Shown piece after piece: positions 4,509 to 28,702 of a stretch of DNA of 28,702 nucleotides. The stretch covers positions 1 to 28,702 of IMG/VR virus record IMGVR_UViG_3300034104_001348, one strand, 5' to 3'. The notes under the pieces are model-generated. The model was not told the DNA's origin and did not search any database. It saw only the letters and a list, made by a program, of their open reading frames with translations. Both the position numbers and the translations under genes were made by a program. Numbering within the stretch: position 1 is the stretch's first letter; each line of letters starts with the position of its first letter. The DNA comes from a virus.

Positions 4509-4949
4509 GTGGGAAAAGTAAACGGAAAAGATGTTTTGATAACGATTAACAATAGCTTGGGTGATCCAACACCTATTGGGTGCGCTCGTTCTATTGTATT
4601 CGATATTCAAAGAGATATGATTGAGACATCGGGACCAGGCAACGGTAACTACCGCACTTATATCCCTGCTGCAATCACTTTCACAGGATCATTGGAGGGG
4701 TTGGTATTTTTGGCTTTGGCTGATACAGGAAAAATAAACATGGGAGCAATGTACTCGTACATTCAAAATGGCACTTTGCTCACTTTGAAATATTACGAGG
4801 AAGATGTTGAGGGGTTGCAATATTTACAAAAGGAATGTCAAGTGTATATCAACAGCATAAATGAGACAGCGAGCTTTGATAACATGACAACATTCACGGC
4901 TAACTTTACCGGGGTTGGTGAACCATTAATAACTTATGGAGATGTATAA
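4509..4949 (+). CDS. Small tail-tube-like structural protein
   Basis: A 146-residue protein starting at GTG 4509, 2 bases after the preceding stop; no in-frame ATG offers a better start. It reads like a compact beta-sandwich of the tail tube/HK97-type fold: an N-terminal strand set (VNGKDVLITINNS), a basic/aromatic stretch with RDMIETSGPGNGNYRTYIPA, a GSLEGLVFLA segment, and a C-terminal TTFTANFTGVGEPL strand. This resembles tube proteins encoded before the chaperones, yet it lies downstream of the tape measure. It overlaps the fibre gene start by 14 bases, so expression is probably coupled. It could be a tail-terminator-like or tip-ring protein; a purely hypothetical structural protein is the alternative. 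Confidence 0.45.
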   Translation: MGKVNGKDVLITINNSLGDPTPIGCARSIVFDIQRDMIETSGPGNGNYRTYIPAAITFTGSLEGLVFLALADTGKINMGAMYSYIQNGTLLTLKYYEEDVEGLQYLQKECQVYINSINETASFDNMTTFTANFTGVGEPLITYGDV

Positions 4950-6924
4950 AAAAATCATATTTGCGATTCTACTTTGTTTTGCTGGTAAGGCATATGCTCA
5001 ACCAAGCCAATACACACCAATGACTGCAAATGGCTATCAAATGAAGCGTGTAAAAGTTGATTCAACTTTGCACATTCCAAGCTTTTGCGGTGTGCCAACA
5101 CTTAGCGGCTCAACATCAATAATGGGAGCTATTGCCTTTGATACTTGTAACAATATACTTTATAAATATAACCATGCAGATGGTTGGACCGAAGTTGGTG
5201 GCGGTGAAACCATAGATACAACTTCTTTAAGCAATCGCATAAACGGCAAAATTGACTCATTAAAAAAAAGCAATGATTCTGTGTTTGCTTATAAGAATGG
5301 AACTGCATATTTTCAATTTAAAGATAGCAGCGGCGGTGGCGGTTCTACATCAACACTTTTAGCTTTACCATTTACAACAGATCACATAAGTGCAAATAAT
5401 AATCAATATGTAGTAGGTGATGTAGTTTGGTATCTTGGCAATGTTTATAGATGTTTAGCTAATAATGATGCTATACTTCCAACAAGCACAATTTATTGGT
5501 CTAATCTTGGATCAGGTTATCCATTGGTGCAACAACCTGCAGATTGGAGCTCAACAAGTGGAAACAATCAAATACTTAATAAACCGACTATATTAACACC
5601 AAGCGACACAGTAAGCTTGAGCAATAGAATTAACGATAAGATTGATTCATTAGAAAGAAGAGCTGATTCTATCTACGCATTTAAAAACGGACAATGGAAT
5701 TTCCAATATAAAACATTAAGTACAAACACTGGCGGGGGAGCTTCCGTTAATTATTATTTGAATGGTAGTATATCACAAGGAACTTTCGGAGGCAATACAT
5801 ATTATCAATTAAGCAAAACACCAATCGCAGGAGCGGGGACAAACTTCACTAGAACCAATGCTCAGGGCAATGGTTATATTGCGTCTTTTATTACTGATGC
5901 TGGTGATCCTAACTTATTAAACATTCCGGGCGGTAATTGGAACTTAGAGTTCTATTTTAACTCTTCAAGTTCAGGCGGCAGTCCTTCTTTTTATGCTGAG
6001 ATTTATAAGGTAAGTGCTACAAATGTCTTTACACTTATTGCAAGTGGTTCTACAAATGCGGAAGGAATAACAAACGGTACTGTCGTTGATCAATATTATA
6101 CCTCAGTTCCTATGCCTCAAACAACACTTGTCGCAACTGATAGAATAGCGCTAAGAATCTTTGTAACTACAGGCGGAAGAAATATAACACTTCACACCGA
6201 AGACAATAACTTATCCGAAGTGTTAACTACTTTTTCAACAGGGTTAAATGCTTTGAATGGCTTAACTACTCAAGTGCAATACTTTCAAACAGGTGCAAGT
6301 GGAACGGATTTCAACATAAGCAGTGCAAGTGATATGCACACCTTTAACATTCCTAATGCTTCAACCGTTGGAGTGACAAGAGGATTAGTAAGTAATGCTG
6401 AATTGACTGCGAAATTAAACGCATCGGATACAACAATATTCCAGCGCAAGCAATTGCCAGCGTACTCAATTGCAGGGAACAACACAAACGCTGCTGCAAA
6501 TGCTACGGCTGTTTATTATAAAGATACTGCTGGCACATATACAGGCACAATAACTTTCACAGCAACTACAGCGCCATCGGGAACAACTAACCATTCTTAC
6601 AGATGGACTAGAATTGGCAATTTAGTTACACTTAACATCACTTTAGTGTATTCTGTTGCTGGTGGTACAGTTTCGCAAGTTATTTTAACGATTCCTAGCG
6701 ATGCTCCAACACCTGCAAAGCCAGCAGGACTAACAGCAGCAAGTAACACTATTTATCCTGTGCTTTATCAATATAGCGGCAACATATCTTCACAACCCGG
6801 TAACGCAGCGCAAAGGGCAATAATGAGAACCAATGCAGCAAATAACGGCTCGGAGATTGTGTCACTTAATACAGGAACAACAATAACCGTATTTTATTAC
6901 ACCGTACAATACACAGCTCAATGA
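4936..6924 (+). CDS. Tail-fibre-like protein with N-terminal signal peptide
   Basis: A 662-residue protein; ATG at 4936 or 4942 both precede a textbook Sec signal: MYKK, a hydrophobic core IIFAILLCFAG, then KAYA before Gln (likely cleavage AYA/Q, position about 22). Two copies of a 25-residue helical module (LSNRINGKIDSLKK at about 98 and LSNRINDKIDSLER at about 228) each lead into a Gly-rich linker, suggesting trimeric stalk units. Between them lies a CBM5/12-like stretch (YVVGDVVWYLGNVYRCL), followed by a DWSSTSGNNQILNKPTI motif typical of phage fibres. The C-terminal 250 residues are Thr/Ala/Gly-rich beta structure. It is likely an adhesin or receptor-binding fibre. The signal peptide is the odd part: virion proteins normally assemble in the cytoplasm. 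Confidence 0.7.
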   Translation: MEMYKKIIFAILLCFAGKAYAQPSQYTPMTANGYQMKRVKVDSTLHIPSFCGVPTLSGSTSIMGAIAFDTCNNILYKYNHADGWTEVGGGETIDTTSLSNRINGKIDSLKKSNDSVFAYKNGTAYFQFKDSSGGGGSTSTLLALPFTTDHISANNNQYVVGDVVWYLGNVYRCLANNDAILPTSTIYWSNLGSGYPLVQQPADWSSTSGNNQILNKPTILTPSDTVSLSNRINDKIDSLERRADSIYAFKNGQWNFQYKTLSTNTGGGASVNYYLNGSISQGTFGGNTYYQLSKTPIAGAGTNFTRTNAQGNGYIASFITDAGDPNLLNIPGGNWNLEFYFNSSSSGGSPSFYAEIYKVSATNVFTLIASGSTNAEGITNGTVVDQYYTSVPMPQTTLVATDRIALRIFVTTGGRNITLHTEDNNLSEVLTTFSTGLNALNGLTTQVQYFQTGASGTDFNISSASDMHTFNIPNASTVGVTRGLVSNAELTAKLNASDTTIFQRKQLPAYSIAGNNTNAAANATAVYYKDTAGTYTGTITFTATTAPSGTTNHSYRWTRIGNLVTLNITLVYSVAGGTVSQVILTIPSDAPTPAKPAGLTAASNTIYPVLYQYSGNISSQPGNAAQRAIMRTNAANNGSEIVSLNTGTTITVFYYTVQYTAQ

Positions 6925-24570: not shown

Positions 24571-24594
24571 GTTTAGTGGTTTAGTTTGATAATA

Positions 24595-24627
24595 AAAAAG
24601 CCCTGCCCAAGTTGGGTGGGGCTTTTT
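24595..24627 (+). terminator. Strong bidirectional-type terminator after capsid
   Basis: A 15-bp stem (24595-24609 with 24613-24627) with only two G-T pairs and an AGT loop; A5 on the left and T5 on the right make it active in both orientations. It would limit capsid read-through to the neck/tail genes and set a capsid excess. Confidence 0.9.
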
Positions 24628-24640
24628 AAAATTAATAAAG

Positions 24641-25159
24641 ATGGTTAACTATAATTCTGTTTTAGACATTGAGTTTTACGATGATGACATCGTGGAGCCA
24701 GTTACACTTACCGAGGCAAAAGATTTTTGTAAAATAGACATCGGAACCGATGACACTTTGATAACGGCTTTAATCACTGCAGCAAGACAGCAGTGCGAAG
24801 CTTACACAGGTGTTGGATTTGTGTCTAGAGAATTGGCTGCGGTGCTTAATAATATCAATGGCGATATTTATATCCCTTATGGTCCGATTAATGAGATTAT
24901 CTCTGTTGAGAATGAGAACGGCACAGAGTTGATTTATGGCACTGGTTATAAGTTAAGCGGCATATCTTTTAAGCGTTTGGAATATCCTAAAGAAACTAAT
25001 ATAACCGTAAGCTATTATGCTGGTTATTATGAGTTGCCTGAAGTGTTAAAGACAGCGCTGCTCAATCAAATATATTATCTTTACGATAACAGAAGCCAAG
25101 GCATTGATGACATTAGCCCAATTGCTAAGACATTATTAAATATTTACCGCCGTGTATAA
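24641..25159 (+). CDS. Head-tail connector (HK97 gp6-like)
   Basis: A 172-residue protein. The first half shows the gp6-like helical pattern: EPVTLTEAKDFCKIDIGTDD, TLITALITAARQQCEAYTGV, then IPYGPINEIISVE and an aromatic SYYAGYYELPEVLKTALLNQ stretch before the C-terminal helices. gp6-type proteins form a ring under the portal to which head closure proteins bind. ATG 24641 follows the capsid terminator by 13 bases. The end overlaps the next GTG by 8 bases, so the neck genes are coupled. Confidence 0.85.
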   Translation: MVNYNSVLDIEFYDDDIVEPVTLTEAKDFCKIDIGTDDTLITALITAARQQCEAYTGVGFVSRELAAVLNNINGDIYIPYGPINEIISVENENGTELIYGTGYKLSGISFKRLEYPKETNITVSYYAGYYELPEVLKTALLNQIYYLYDNRSQGIDDISPIAKTLLNIYRRV

Positions 25160-25733
25160 ATTAAACAGAAGAGTACAGGTTAACAGATATACAACTGCTA
25201 AGAATCAATTTGGTGGCTTAACGGCTATCTTGACTGGTAGTTGGGATAAATGGTGTGAGGTAAGAGACAGAACCGGAACGAGTGGCAATGATTATCAGCA
25301 GTCACAATGGTTGTACACTCATATCTTTGTAATGAGATACGAGAAAGAAAGACCGACAAGGTCCAATGATGTGATTGCTTATGAAAGCGAATACTACAAA
25401 ATAAACAGCATACAAATACGAACAGAGGGAGCAAAGTCATTCGAATATATTGAAGCGACAAAACTTGATGAAAACATTAACAGCGATGCACCTATGGACT
25501 TAAATAATATCACGTATGTAAACTATACGGCAAACGAGGATGAGTACGAGATAACAGATGCTAACTTGATTGGTAAGCATTTATTTTTAGTTCTAAAGGA
25601 TGGCATCGGTTACGAGCTGCTGACAAGTGGTTCACCAACAGGAAAACAAGTGGTATTTAATTCAACTACTGGCTTGCTAACATTTGGGGTGACTTTTGCG
25701 GCTGATGAGATTATAACTTACATTTACTATTAA
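25152..25733 (+). CDS. Head-closure protein with C-terminal decoration module
   Basis: A 193-residue protein starting at GTG 25152 inside the preceding gene. Residues 1-120 match the SPP1 gp16/HK97 gp7 style head-closure fold: LNRRVQVNRYTTAKNQFGGL, WDKWCEVRDRTG and YKINSIQIRTEGAKSFEYIE. The last 73 residues are an extra beta module (NYTANEDEYEITDANLIGKH and LLTFGVTFAADEIITYIYY), a type of add-on seen on phage surface proteins; closure proteins are usually shorter. It would decorate the neck. Its stop shares a base with the next ATG (TAATG). Confidence 0.75.
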   Translation: MYKLNRRVQVNRYTTAKNQFGGLTAILTGSWDKWCEVRDRTGTSGNDYQQSQWLYTHIFVMRYEKERPTRSNDVIAYESEYYKINSIQIRTEGAKSFEYIEATKLDENINSDAPMDLNNITYVNYTANEDEYEITDANLIGKHLFLVLKDGIGYELLTSGSPTGKQVVFNSTTGLLTFGVTFAADEIITYIYY

Positions 25734-26188
25734 TGAGCTATAAAGTTCCATACAATACGCTCCCAGATTTGGGGGCATTACAAAGCGGTGACTATGTGCC
25801 AATGCTTAGACCTCCTTTTGATGAGGGCAAAGCATTTGTGAGCGATTTTAAGGCGGCAATTTCGCCGTTAAAATGGTATGCGGTACAGATGACACAAGCG
25901 GGCGGTGGAGCGCCAACAGTTGGCACTACATACCTCAATGAGATTGGCGCTATCAGTTGGGCTTATGTAACTACTGGAACATATACAGGCACGCTTACCG
26001 GGGCATTTACCACACCATTCCCAAAACAAACAAATGTCTTTGGATTGATTGAGTTCGGTAAGACATATTTTTATGCTGTTGAGCGTGTTGATGCGGATAA
26101 CATAACACTATACACGTATCGTGAAGATTGGACTTTGCAAGACAATCTTTTGCTCAATAATGACATTAATTTCTACTGCTATGTTTAA
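25733..26188 (+). CDS. Virion-associated hypothetical with fibre-like C-terminal domain
   Basis: A 151-residue protein. The N-terminal 45 residues (YNTLPDLGALQSGDYVPMLR) may anchor it; from about residue 50 the pattern QMTQAGGGAPTVGTTYLNEI followed by TGTYTGTLTGAF is a beta module common in appendage proteins of Bacteroidetes phages. Location between head closure and the gp10-like gene suggests a neck whisker or decoration. No enzymatic motif. The C-terminus overlaps the next gene by 8 bases. Confidence 0.6.
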   Translation: MSYKVPYNTLPDLGALQSGDYVPMLRPPFDEGKAFVSDFKAAISPLKWYAVQMTQAGGGAPTVGTTYLNEIGAISWAYVTTGTYTGTLTGAFTTPFPKQTNVFGLIEFGKTYFYAVERVDADNITLYTYREDWTLQDNLLLNNDINFYCYV

Positions 26189-26705
26189 GATTGAGGTCAC
26201 TGGTGTTGATGCAACGCTTAAAAAGTTTGATACTTTGGCTAAAAAGACAAAGCAAGACGTTCAAGCGGCGCTTAATGACTTTGGAGACAGGACTGTAGAG
26301 AATGCGAAGATGTTGGTGTCTGCAAATTCAAGTGATGAGGGTGCTTTACTAAGAAGCATTACAACAACTTATGGCGATGGTAATGTGTCGGTGCAAGCTT
26401 CGGCAAGATATGCGGCTTATATTGAGTTTGGTACTAGAAAATTTGCTGCTGCTTATGTGTCTAGTTTGCCAGCGGATTGGGCGAGTTATGCGGCTACATT
26501 TAAAGGATCAGCAGGCGGCACATTTAAAGAAATGGTGTTAAGTATTATGGCTTGGTGCAAACGTAAAGGAATTGATGACAAAGCCGCTTATCCAATTGCT
26601 AGAAGCATCATGATAAATGGCATAAGACCAAAGCCGTTTATTTATCCATCATTTAACGCTGAATTTCCTTTGTTAATTCAAGATATAAAAGCTATCTTTA
26701 AGTAA
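26181..26705 (+). CDS. HK97 gp10-like neck/tail protein
   Basis: A 174-residue protein. ATG 26181 is preferred over an upstream GTG (26121) because the family opening MFKIEVTGVDATLKKFDTLA starts there. Later elements: DRTVENAKMLVSANSSDEGA, ARYAAYIEFGTRKFAA, and the C-terminal INGIRPKPFIYPSFNAEF. gp10-like proteins shape the tail terminator/neck interface. A 60-residue helical insertion (about 85-145) lies between the EFGT element and the C-terminus. It overlaps the previous stop by 8 bases. Confidence 0.85.
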   Translation: MFKIEVTGVDATLKKFDTLAKKTKQDVQAALNDFGDRTVENAKMLVSANSSDEGALLRSITTTYGDGNVSVQASARYAAYIEFGTRKFAAAYVSSLPADWASYAATFKGSAGGTFKEMVLSIMAWCKRKGIDDKAAYPIARSIMINGIRPKPFIYPSFNAEFPLLIQDIKAIFK

Positions 26706-26708
26706 TAT

Positions 26709-27131
26709 ATGAAAGATGTAAACTCGGCCATATTGCAAGCTTATTATGAGGTGATTGATGACCTTGAGATACCTTGTTATGAGGGCGAAGAACCTGATGA
26801 CGTTAAGCATCCCATTTATTGCGTTATCTCCGATGTAACTTCTACAGAGACATCAACAGATAGCAGCTCCGATGTAAATGCAACAATCCAGCTAAGCTTT
26901 CATTCATGGAAGTACAAGTACAATAATTCGGAAGATTTGAATAATGTGGTCGGAGATGTATTGGAGGCAATAAAGCCAAATTCAAAAAGTGTGCTAGATT
27001 TATCGAATTATGGATTACAAATGTTAAATTTGAGTGTGCAAACGGATAGAACAGACAGATTAGGTGAGTTGGGAGGTAAGATATTTATTACCAGGATATT
27101 GATTTTTAAGCAAGATATTTTTATTATATAA
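26709..27131 (+). CDS. Tail completion / tail terminator protein (gp11-like)
   Basis: A 140-residue protein. The order ILQAYYEVIDDLEIPCYEGE, KHPIYCVISDVTSTETSTDS, IQLSFHSWKYKYNNSEDLNN and ending with LSVQTDRTDRLGELGGKIFI is the pattern of small tail terminators (family DUF3168-like), which cap the tube and join it to the head. It starts 3 bases after the gp10-like stop and precedes the tail tube gene by 20 bases, the standard order. Confidence 0.75.
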   Translation: MKDVNSAILQAYYEVIDDLEIPCYEGEEPDDVKHPIYCVISDVTSTETSTDSSSDVNATIQLSFHSWKYKYNNSEDLNNVVGDVLEAIKPNSKSVLDLSNYGLQMLNLSVQTDRTDRLGELGGKIFITRILIFKQDIFII

Positions 27132-27151
27132 AACCCATAAATTAGAATAAA

Positions 27152-27583
27152 ATGGCAGAACACAAAGTAGCCGGCGGTACAATGTTACTTTTCATTGATC
27201 CAAATGGCGGAACAAGTTATGACACCGTTGTATGTTTGACATCGGTAGGAAAATCGGACAGCGTTACAGTTGTTGACGCATCTTCAGCTTGCGGACCAGA
27301 CAAGTCACCTGGTACATTAGAGTTGTCTTACTCATTTGAGGGACAGCATTTGCAAGATCCTGATAGCGGAAAAATCAGTGGTACATCACTTCGCCAGTTG
27401 TTGCGTTCTAAGACAACTATTGGCTGGAAGATTGCACCTGAAACACCAGTAACGGGAGATGAGATTGAAAGTGGAACAGGTTACTTGTCGGAATTGAGCA
27501 GCACTTATGCTTTTGATTCTGTTGGTACCTTTACCGGAACAATTCAGCCATATGGCACTCCTACTTTGTCTACTCAAGCATAA
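27152..27583 (+). CDS. Major tail (tube) protein, plain copy
   Basis: A 143-residue tube subunit. It begins MAEHKVAGGTMLLFIDPNGG, carries LTSVGKSDSVTVVDASSACG, then ELSYSFEGQHLQDPDSGKIS and ends with YAFDSVGTFTGTIQPYGTPT. This is the TP901-1/Bacteroidetes tail tube type. A second copy follows 9 bases later, with 126 of 140 aligned residues identical by eye (14 differences), yet many synonymous codon differences. The plain copy lacks the extra C-terminal domain of the second. It would polymerise as the tail tube around the tape measure. Confidence 0.88.
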   Translation: MAEHKVAGGTMLLFIDPNGGTSYDTVVCLTSVGKSDSVTVVDASSACGPDKSPGTLELSYSFEGQHLQDPDSGKISGTSLRQLLRSKTTIGWKIAPETPVTGDEIESGTGYLSELSSTYAFDSVGTFTGTIQPYGTPTLSTQA

Positions 27584-27592
27584 TAAAAACAA

Positions 27593-28510
27593 ATGGCCGA
27601 GCATAAAGTTCAAGGTGGCGACATGCTGCTTTTCATTGATCCTAACGGAGGCACAAACTATGATATAGTTGTGTGCCTTACTTCTGTTGGCAAAAACGAC
27701 AGCGTTACAGTTGTTGATGCGTCTTCAGCTTGCGGACCTGATAAAAGCCCAGGCACGTTAGAATTAAGCTACTCATTTGAGGGGCAACACTTACAAGATC
27801 CCGACACAGGCAAAATAAGTGGAACAGATTTGCGTCAGCTATTGAGAAGTGAGACAACTATCGGCTGGAAGATTGCACCTGAGAACCCTGTAGATGGTGA
27901 TGAGATTGAAGAGGGCACTGGCTACCTATCGGAGTTGAGTAGCACTTATGCTTTTGATTCTGTGGGTACATTTACCGGCACCTTGCAACCTTATGGTGAT
28001 CCTACATTGACCATTTATGGTGGCGGTGGCGCTTTGGTAGTTGGGCAAGATTATCAAGGCGGTGTCATTGCTTGGCTTGATGGTGGAGGAACAAATGGCA
28101 TAATCGTACAGAAAAATTATGACGGATTTGGTGTTTTAACTTCTAGATATTTTGCAAGTTGGTCAAGTCCAGACAATAACGATACAGGAGCGACATTGAC
28201 AGCGTGGGGTTCAGGTACAGCAAACACCAACAGCATTATAGCTACAACTACTACTTCTCTAGCTTTAAGTATTTATAACGATACTTACGGGGGTTATAGT
28301 GATTGGGTTATGCCAAGTCAAAACGATATGGATAACATTTTAAGCAACGGAGTGACTTTAAACATAGGAAGTGGAGATTATGCAACGTCAACTCAAAATG
28401 ATAATAATACCTTTAGAGGGTTTAATTATTTTTATGGTGATCCTGCTGGTACATTAACAAGCTTAAGCAAGACGTTCCCATTTGCAGCTTTTGGAGTAAG
28501 ATATTTTTAA
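27593..28510 (+). CDS. Second major tail protein with C-terminal lectin-like (DUF1566-type) extension
   Basis: A 305-residue protein. Residues 1-140 duplicate the preceding tube protein; after YGDPTLTIYGGGG comes a 160-residue extension with DYQGGVIAWLDGGGTNGIIV, then WGSGTANTNSI, and GGYSDWVMPSQNDMDNILSN, which is the DUF1566/Lcl C-terminal style signature, seen in Bacteroidetes surface proteins and thought to bind glycans. The tube would therefore contain plain and decorated subunits. Substitutions in the tube part favour Asp/Glu/Asn in this copy. The gene ends 18 bases before the tail assembly chaperone. Confidence 0.82.
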   Translation: MAEHKVQGGDMLLFIDPNGGTNYDIVVCLTSVGKNDSVTVVDASSACGPDKSPGTLELSYSFEGQHLQDPDTGKISGTDLRQLLRSETTIGWKIAPENPVDGDEIEEGTGYLSELSSTYAFDSVGTFTGTLQPYGDPTLTIYGGGGALVVGQDYQGGVIAWLDGGGTNGIIVQKNYDGFGVLTSRYFASWSSPDNNDTGATLTAWGSGTANTNSIIATTTTSLALSIYNDTYGGYSDWVMPSQNDMDNILSNGVTLNIGSGDYATSTQNDNNTFRGFNYFYGDPAGTLTSLSKTFPFAAFGVRYF

Positions 28511-28528
28511 ATAATAAACACTAACAAC

Positions 28529-28702
28529 ATGAGTTACATTCAAATCAACTTAGGCGGCGAGTTGCGTGGCCTTAAGTTCAATCAATTGGCTATAGAAGTC
28601 ATTGGCAATTATAACGATTCACAGACAACCACTGGCTTTTTATATGCCATGATTTATGGCGGTTTAAAGGGCAATGCTTATGTAAAGCGTGAAGAGTTGA
28701 CG
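28529..28702 (+). CDS. Tail assembly chaperone, N-terminal part (gpG-like), continues at base 1
   Basis: This frame opens with ATG at 28529, 18 bases after the stop of the second tail tube gene, and runs off the window end without a stop. Its last codons (GAG TTG ACG) equal the first three codons of the window, and the same frame continues there to a stop at 184-186. Joined with the 9-base overlap collapsed, the protein is 116 residues. Position between the major tail protein and the tape measure, the small size, and a downstream overlapping frame entered by frameshift are the hallmarks of the lambda gpG/gpGT family. These proteins coat the tape measure during tail assembly and are absent from the finished virion. 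The family assignment comes from context and frameshift architecture; I do not recognise the residues as a named family. Confidence 0.8.
   Translation, partial: MSYIQINLGGELRGLKFNQLAIEVIGNYNDSQTTTGFLYAMIYGGLKGNAYVKREELT

Follow-up and report, generated by a model that had tools for sequence, protein, structure and literature searches.

Decoration of the siphophage tail tube is known mainly from two genetic arrangements, frameshifting and single fused genes, and the decorating domains mostly have Ig-like folds. The closest described system is that of SPP1, in which two proteins, gp17.1 and gp17.1*, possess the same tube domain and one of them carries a C-terminal display domain. Both are products of one gene, in which a +1 frameshift adds an FN3 domain; they are mixed at a ratio of 3:1 in the tail, and virions with the plain form alone are viable (PMC8718954). 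A comparable arrangement is encountered in the MTP-TpeX proteins of the 936-group lactococcal phages, where a variable carbohydrate-binding extension (a BppA-type module) is added to a conserved tube domain by programmed frameshift from one gene, and where the TpeX extension binds host cells (PMC6669499). In lambda (gpV), T5 (pb6), YSD1 and JBD30 the decorating domain also points outwards from the tube domain, but here a single gene is used, all subunits are decorated and the folds are Ig-like. Two or more major tail genes have been annotated in actinophages (PMC11080557, PMC10652937), such as those of cluster EL and others (Damascus; Camille), for which "two major tail proteins" or several tail genes per genome are listed. 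The function of siphophage tail decorations is still called unclear (PMC9022992).

The locus described here lies in the virus record IMGVR_UViG_3300034104_001348, the whole of which (28,702 nucleotides) is referred to as the window. As in SPP1, two proteins share a tube domain and one has a C-terminal extension, but they are encoded by two anciently diverged genes instead of one, and the extensions found among the relatives of this phage are, unlike that of SPP1, mostly not Ig or FN3 domains. We consider it likely that the plain protein builds the tube while the extended paralogue co-assembles with it and displays a swappable adhesin.

Genome context and probable host

The record suggests a small siphovirus-like phage genome. 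Its ends (positions 1-9 and 28694-28702) overlap by nine bases, GAGTTGACG, the reading frame of the tail assembly chaperone runs uninterrupted through the joined ends, and a record from another metagenome (IMGVR_UViG_3300042387_000073, here L004) is 100% identical to positions 24594-28702 and 1-2304, thereby spanning the join. It follows that the genome is complete, either circular or circularly permuted, with a length of about 28,693 bp. The presence of a tape measure gene, with no sheath gene recognised, suggests a siphovirus. Helical tape measures follow a general rule of 1.5 angstrom of tail length per residue, by which the tape measure of 584 residues would correspond to a tail of about 88 nm, with some 20-22 rings and about 130 tube subunits.

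Downstream of the tape measure gene, at a place equivalent to that of gp089 in Cellulophaga phage phi10:1, a third and distant tube-like gene is found, the product of which is 29% identical to the extended copy. The original prediction recognised the two tandem tube genes and overlooked this one. In some relatives (L036, L025, L026, L012, L033, L055 and L078) the third gene encodes 271-272 residues, and in L036 well over 100 residues are inserted within the tube fold. Past the third gene in the window, at 4936-6924, there is a 662-residue protein with a weak match to CBM_5_12 (E 0.001, below the cut-off), which is probably a tail fibre.

The host probably belongs to the Bacteroidota. The nearest terminases at full length are those of Bacteroides phages (33%), the nearest tube proteins of cultivated phages are those of Cellulophaga phages (26-27%), and the FISUMP and SprB-like families to which extensions of the group are related are typical of surface proteins of Bacteroidota and Fibrobacterota. 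A search for the host among prophages, by a scan of species genomes, gave one weak match.

A tandem pair of tail tube genes

The two genes occupy the position that is usual for siphophage major tail genes, with the tail terminator before them and the chaperone and tape measure after them (Table 1). Both products belong by sequence to phrog_1407, the (TP901-1-like) siphophage major tail protein family. The AlphaFold model of the plain copy (pLDDT 75) consists of a predicted beta-sandwich tube fold with one helix, for which Foldseek returned the tail tubes of monocin, 80alpha, GTA, lambda and SPP1 (E 4e-7 to 3e-4); the model of the extended protein matches tail tubes too.

Table 1. Positions of tail genes and of the domains of the extended protein in the window.
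Feature	Coordinates	Strand	Evidence or remark
Tail terminator	26709..27131	+	phrog_176, E 8.2e-7
Plain major tail (tube) protein, 143 aa	27152..27583	+	phrog_1407, E 2.6e-9; Foldseek matches to tail tubes; present in 81/81 contigs
Extended ("decorated") tail-tube paralogue, 305 aa	27593..28510	+	phrog_1407, E 3.2e-9; falls in the clade of extended copies
Tube domain of the extended paralogue, residues 1-140	27593..28012	+	D79 and E87, where the plain copy has S79 and K87
Lcl_C/C-type-lectin-like extension (predicted fold), residues 141-305	28013..28507	+	Model, profile and Foldseek match to 8q4e; phrog_4245, E 4.9e-7
Tail assembly chaperone, 5' part	28529..28702	+	Open frame across the join; continues at 1-186 over the record end
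Tape measure protein, 584 aa	475..2229	+	phrog_19914 ("tail length tape measure protein"), E 4.3e-7; phrog_30292, E 1.5e-23
Third, distant tube-like protein, 146 aa	4509..4949	+	phrog_1407, E 1.9e-14

As had been predicted from the letters, the adjacent tail proteins are about 90% alike over 140 positions: 126 of 140 residues of the tube domains are identical in an ungapped alignment (125/138). At the DNA level identity is 74.5%, and 73 of the 105 differences over 138 codons are at third positions. The extended gene begins with its own ATG nine bases past the stop codon of the plain gene (TAA TAAAAACAA ATG), and its product has 165 residues beyond the tube domain. With a separate ORF, its own ATG and a second complete tube domain, the pair in the window is not the output of a programmed frameshift from one gene, and the proposal that duplication plus domain fusion here replaces the frameshifting of SPP1 is supported. 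The closest predicted viral structures, both from uncultured phages, are a 293-residue "uncharacterized protein" (52%) and a 142-residue "major tail protein TP901-1" (86%); sequences of this kind are already known, and it is the arrangement that is unannotated.

The extension in the window

In the model of the extended protein, pLDDT is mostly 84-95 from residue 151 on and lower in the tube part. The original prediction of a DUF1566-like extension of some 160 residues stands as regards length and predicted fold: the modelled residues 141-305 adopt the fold of the solved C-terminal domain of Legionella Lcl (8q4e), with a Foldseek E of 6e-5 and a TMt of 0.70, and a profile built from 14 relatives matches 8q4e with an E of 1.7e-9. 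The direct match is weaker, as the single sequence scores 16.9 bits (E 0.008) against DUF1566 (now Lcl_C, PF07603), short of the curated Pfam cut-off of 34.9 bits; the corresponding extension of relative L018, at 29.3 bits (E 1.1e-6), likewise falls under that cut-off. From the profile and the predicted fold, the extension is therefore described here as Lcl_C-like and not as a certified member of PF07603. In a single-sequence scan of viruses for this type of extension, two nearest relatives only were found, and there was no match among phage records.

The Lcl C-terminal domain is C-type-lectin-like and trimeric and binds sulphated glycosaminoglycans, and the solved structure is without the classical sugar-binding motifs of C-type lectins (PMC11162425). 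Legionella secretes Lcl as a collagen-like, trimeric adhesin, whereas the domain in the window sits on a phage tube protein.

Distribution of the pair among relatives

When IMG/VR was scanned for the tube domain, 80 loci were obtained, which with the window make 81 contigs. Many of these are closely related and the counts are not independent; distinct tube sequences number 62 for the plain and 38 for the extended form. The plain copy (142-144 residues) is universal. At least one further, longer copy is found in 50 contigs, mostly directly downstream of the plain gene, and in 44 of these it has at least 50 extra residues (a few are cut by the contig end). The second copy of the other six (L063, L064, L065, L066, L069 and L051) has 16-27 extra residues only, so that not every second copy offers a large display domain. 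Where these short tails measure 27 residues, they finish in TESGLILEIE or TESDLILEIE. Seven contigs, near-copies among them, have a plain and two extended genes; the order is extended-plain-extended in L068 and plain-plain-extended in L052. Among the 31 plain-only contigs, the chaperone follows directly in 29 and the other two are cut off. With a plain copy everywhere, an extended copy in 50 contigs and a chaperone directly after the plain gene in 29, the extended gene appears as an accessory one.

Collapse of near-identical repeats during assembly, which the original prediction had raised as a hazard, is a negligible explanation of the pair. The two copies are just 75% identical in DNA, L004 matches at 100% over 4109 + 2304 bases that include both genes, about 50 contigs carry a comparable pair, and no point was found in favour of an artefact.

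Age of the duplication and paralogue signature

By maximum likelihood, 30 of the 38 distinct extended tube domains group as a single clade (support 99/95), and the extended copy of the window is 97% identical to other extended copies but 91% identical to its own plain partner. This grouping places the duplication before the divergence of most relatives. An old duplication with both copies kept, as originally proposed, agrees with the tree and with the low dN/dS; as to the alternative offered with it, import of a homologue, the second copy is not a recent import. The remaining eight extended tube domains fall outside the clade and the best tree needs five label changes, although a single clade of all 38 is not rejected (p-AU 0.088). 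One of the eight, that of L067, groups with its own plain copy yet retains D79, I82 and E87. Gene conversion is perhaps the cause; the DNA identity profile of L067 showed no clear converted tract.

Between the two tube copies of the window, the dN/dS comparison proposed at the outset gives a dN of 0.119 and a dS of 2.66 (NG86), which is saturated, so that the ratio can be read just as much less than 1. The wide synonymous divergence that had been pointed out does reflect age, but there is nothing unusual in it: the pS of the pair is 0.74, and pairs of plain orthologues from different phages with a pN of 0.09-0.12 have pS values of 0.34-0.94 (median 0.62), so nothing beyond age is needed. A selected excess of synonymous divergence that would protect the tandem copies against recombination is therefore unsupported. 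Between close relatives the tube domain of the extended copy is under purifying selection (window versus L005, dN 0.012 and dS 0.162), and the extension evolves faster (dN 0.109 and dS 0.56).

The two paralogues are separated by a small set of positions. Position 87 is K in 61 of 61 plain copies and E in 28 of the 30 members of the extended clade, S79 is replaced by D in 29 of the 30, and Q82 gives way mostly to I, L or F; A7 is mostly Q or E, and T10 mostly N or D. In the plain-copy model, positions 79-87 are on the main helix (77-85) and the turn after it. Most of the segment 42-54 (DASSACGPDKSPG), like other core residues, is shared by the two paralogues. The signature at 79, 82 and 87 suggests a functional difference at the level of the tube.

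The extension as an exchangeable cassette

Extensions of at least 50 residues fall into seven groups without detectable similarity to each other in an all-against-all comparison. Pfam matches among the relatives include Fib_succ_major/FISUMP (E 2.2e-30), LRR_5 (E 1e-11), He_PIG (E 1.9e-12) followed by Lcl_C (E 1.1e-6), and a weak PKD. Extensions of 107-108 residues (L012, L022, L035 and L049) gave no significant Pfam match and a weak SprB one; on length and pattern they are at best weakly assigned as Ig-like. Closely related tube domains can thus bear Lcl_C-like, FISUMP, Ig-like, leucine-rich-repeat or PKD-like extensions.

The borders of exchange are visible in DNA. Between L017 (Lcl-like) and L035 (Ig-like), identity is 86% as far as base 417 of the extended gene, disappears across the extension and returns to 86% from the last codons onward; L014 (FISUMP) and L012 (Ig-like) break and resume in the same manner at the border of tube and extension. 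For both pairs identity is 84-86% before the border and 86-89% from the stop codon. L054 and L056 are about 95% identical around their first extended gene, and in their second one the tube domain has a dN of 0.013 and the extension a pN of 0.48. In other pairs the extension is the younger part, with a dS of 0.09 against 0.49 in the tube domain for L009/L014 and of 0.37 against 0.55 for L019/L020, a pattern that movement of extensions between phages would produce. Across the 30-member clade, the six extension classes require no fewer than nine changes on the tree. These comparisons show that extensions are exchanged between relatives as a cassette.

L054 and L056 are nearly identical phages, and the substitutions between the extensions of their first extended genes (L054:6862-7335 versus L056:1187-1660) are concentrated in a single loop region towards the C-terminus, with a dN/dS of about 0.6; this loop may be the binding face.

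A probable mixed tail tube and its alternatives

The plain gene would supply the bulk of the tail tube, and the downstream paralogue, which keeps a complete tube domain, would enter the same stack of hexameric rings with its C-terminal Lcl_C/C-type-lectin-like domain facing outwards, so that the tail would combine bare with decorated subunits in a mosaic. Co-assembly is suggested by the preserved tube domain and by analogy with the mixed tube of SPP1, and the viability of SPP1 virions with the plain form alone matches the accessory status of the extended gene. The ratio of the two forms would depend on how strongly the two separate genes are expressed and on the affinity of their products, and not on ribosomal frameshifting. 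The decorated tube domain would act as a standing socket, relatives swapping only what follows residue 140 or so and some of them keeping two decorated genes. The displayed domains are most likely weak, multivalent adhesins to host-surface or environmental glycans, as suggested by the nature of the domains and by analogy with the TpeX extension of 936 phages.

The main competing explanation places the extended paralogue in a specialised collar-like ring at one end of the tail (neck or tip) instead of along the tube. It draws on the consistent signature in the helix and turn at 77-90, on the two different extended genes of some phages, as expected for separate places, and on the third tube-like gene, from which the lineage may be thought to use specialised tube-fold proteins; with S79D and K87E, extended subunits could hold a special ring instead of being interspersed. 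It is nevertheless rather unlikely, as the extended gene adjoins the plain one and is missing from many relatives, and as its tube domain, unlike the divergent third copy, is 90% identical to the plain one with most core residues unchanged. Tentatively, and with less confidence than in the mixed tube as such, the decorated paralogue with its change of helix charge (S79D, K87E) may both assemble at defined positions with the plain subunit and be a stable socket for non-homologous adhesin domains (lectin-like, FISUMP, Ig, leucine-rich repeat, PKD) recombined at the exact domain border.

That the extended gene is a passive relic, a tolerated duplicate whose extension was gained without a function in adhesion, would fit its absence from 29 contigs, by which it is dispensable in the long term, and the fact that some second copies carry no more than short tails; the conserved clade, the low dN/dS in the tube domain and most extensions, and the repeated in-frame replacement of domains with intact borders make this improbable. 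Still more remote is the idea that the extension is the target of a diversity-generating retroelement with mutagenised binding loops. Such elements use the C-type-lectin-like fold, and most of the differences between L054 and L056 fall within a short stretch close to the 3' end, but the genome has no reverse transcriptase, the window and four loci contain no template repeat, and the substitutions are not adenine-specific.

Possible decorated paralogues in other phages

Tail decorations as such, and multiple major tail genes in actinophages, are already known. What appears undescribed is a decorated paralogue that is a gene of its own, diverged long ago and bears exchangeable domains, mostly other than Ig; no description of tandem plain and extended tube genes with swapped domains was found in a literature search largely confined to non-subscription journals. 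For a mixed tube with swappable adhesins, these phages offer a natural controlled comparison, in which the tube platform is constant, the decorated gene is free-standing and dispensable, close relatives bear many different swapped domains, and the role of tail decorations becomes directly testable. They would constitute a natural display system on the tube that requires no frameshift, and suggest a way of varying what the tail displays with the tube itself untouched.

For actinophage major tail paralogues, a role in extension swapping or decoration is not described in the available papers. In Camille (MH153800, L084), gp17, gp19 and gp20 are paralogues (phmmer E 2e-55 to 3e-66) with different C-terminal parts. 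They differ from the pair in the window in tube family and host, and gp17 and gp19 are not adjacent; they may represent an independent instance of this strategy.
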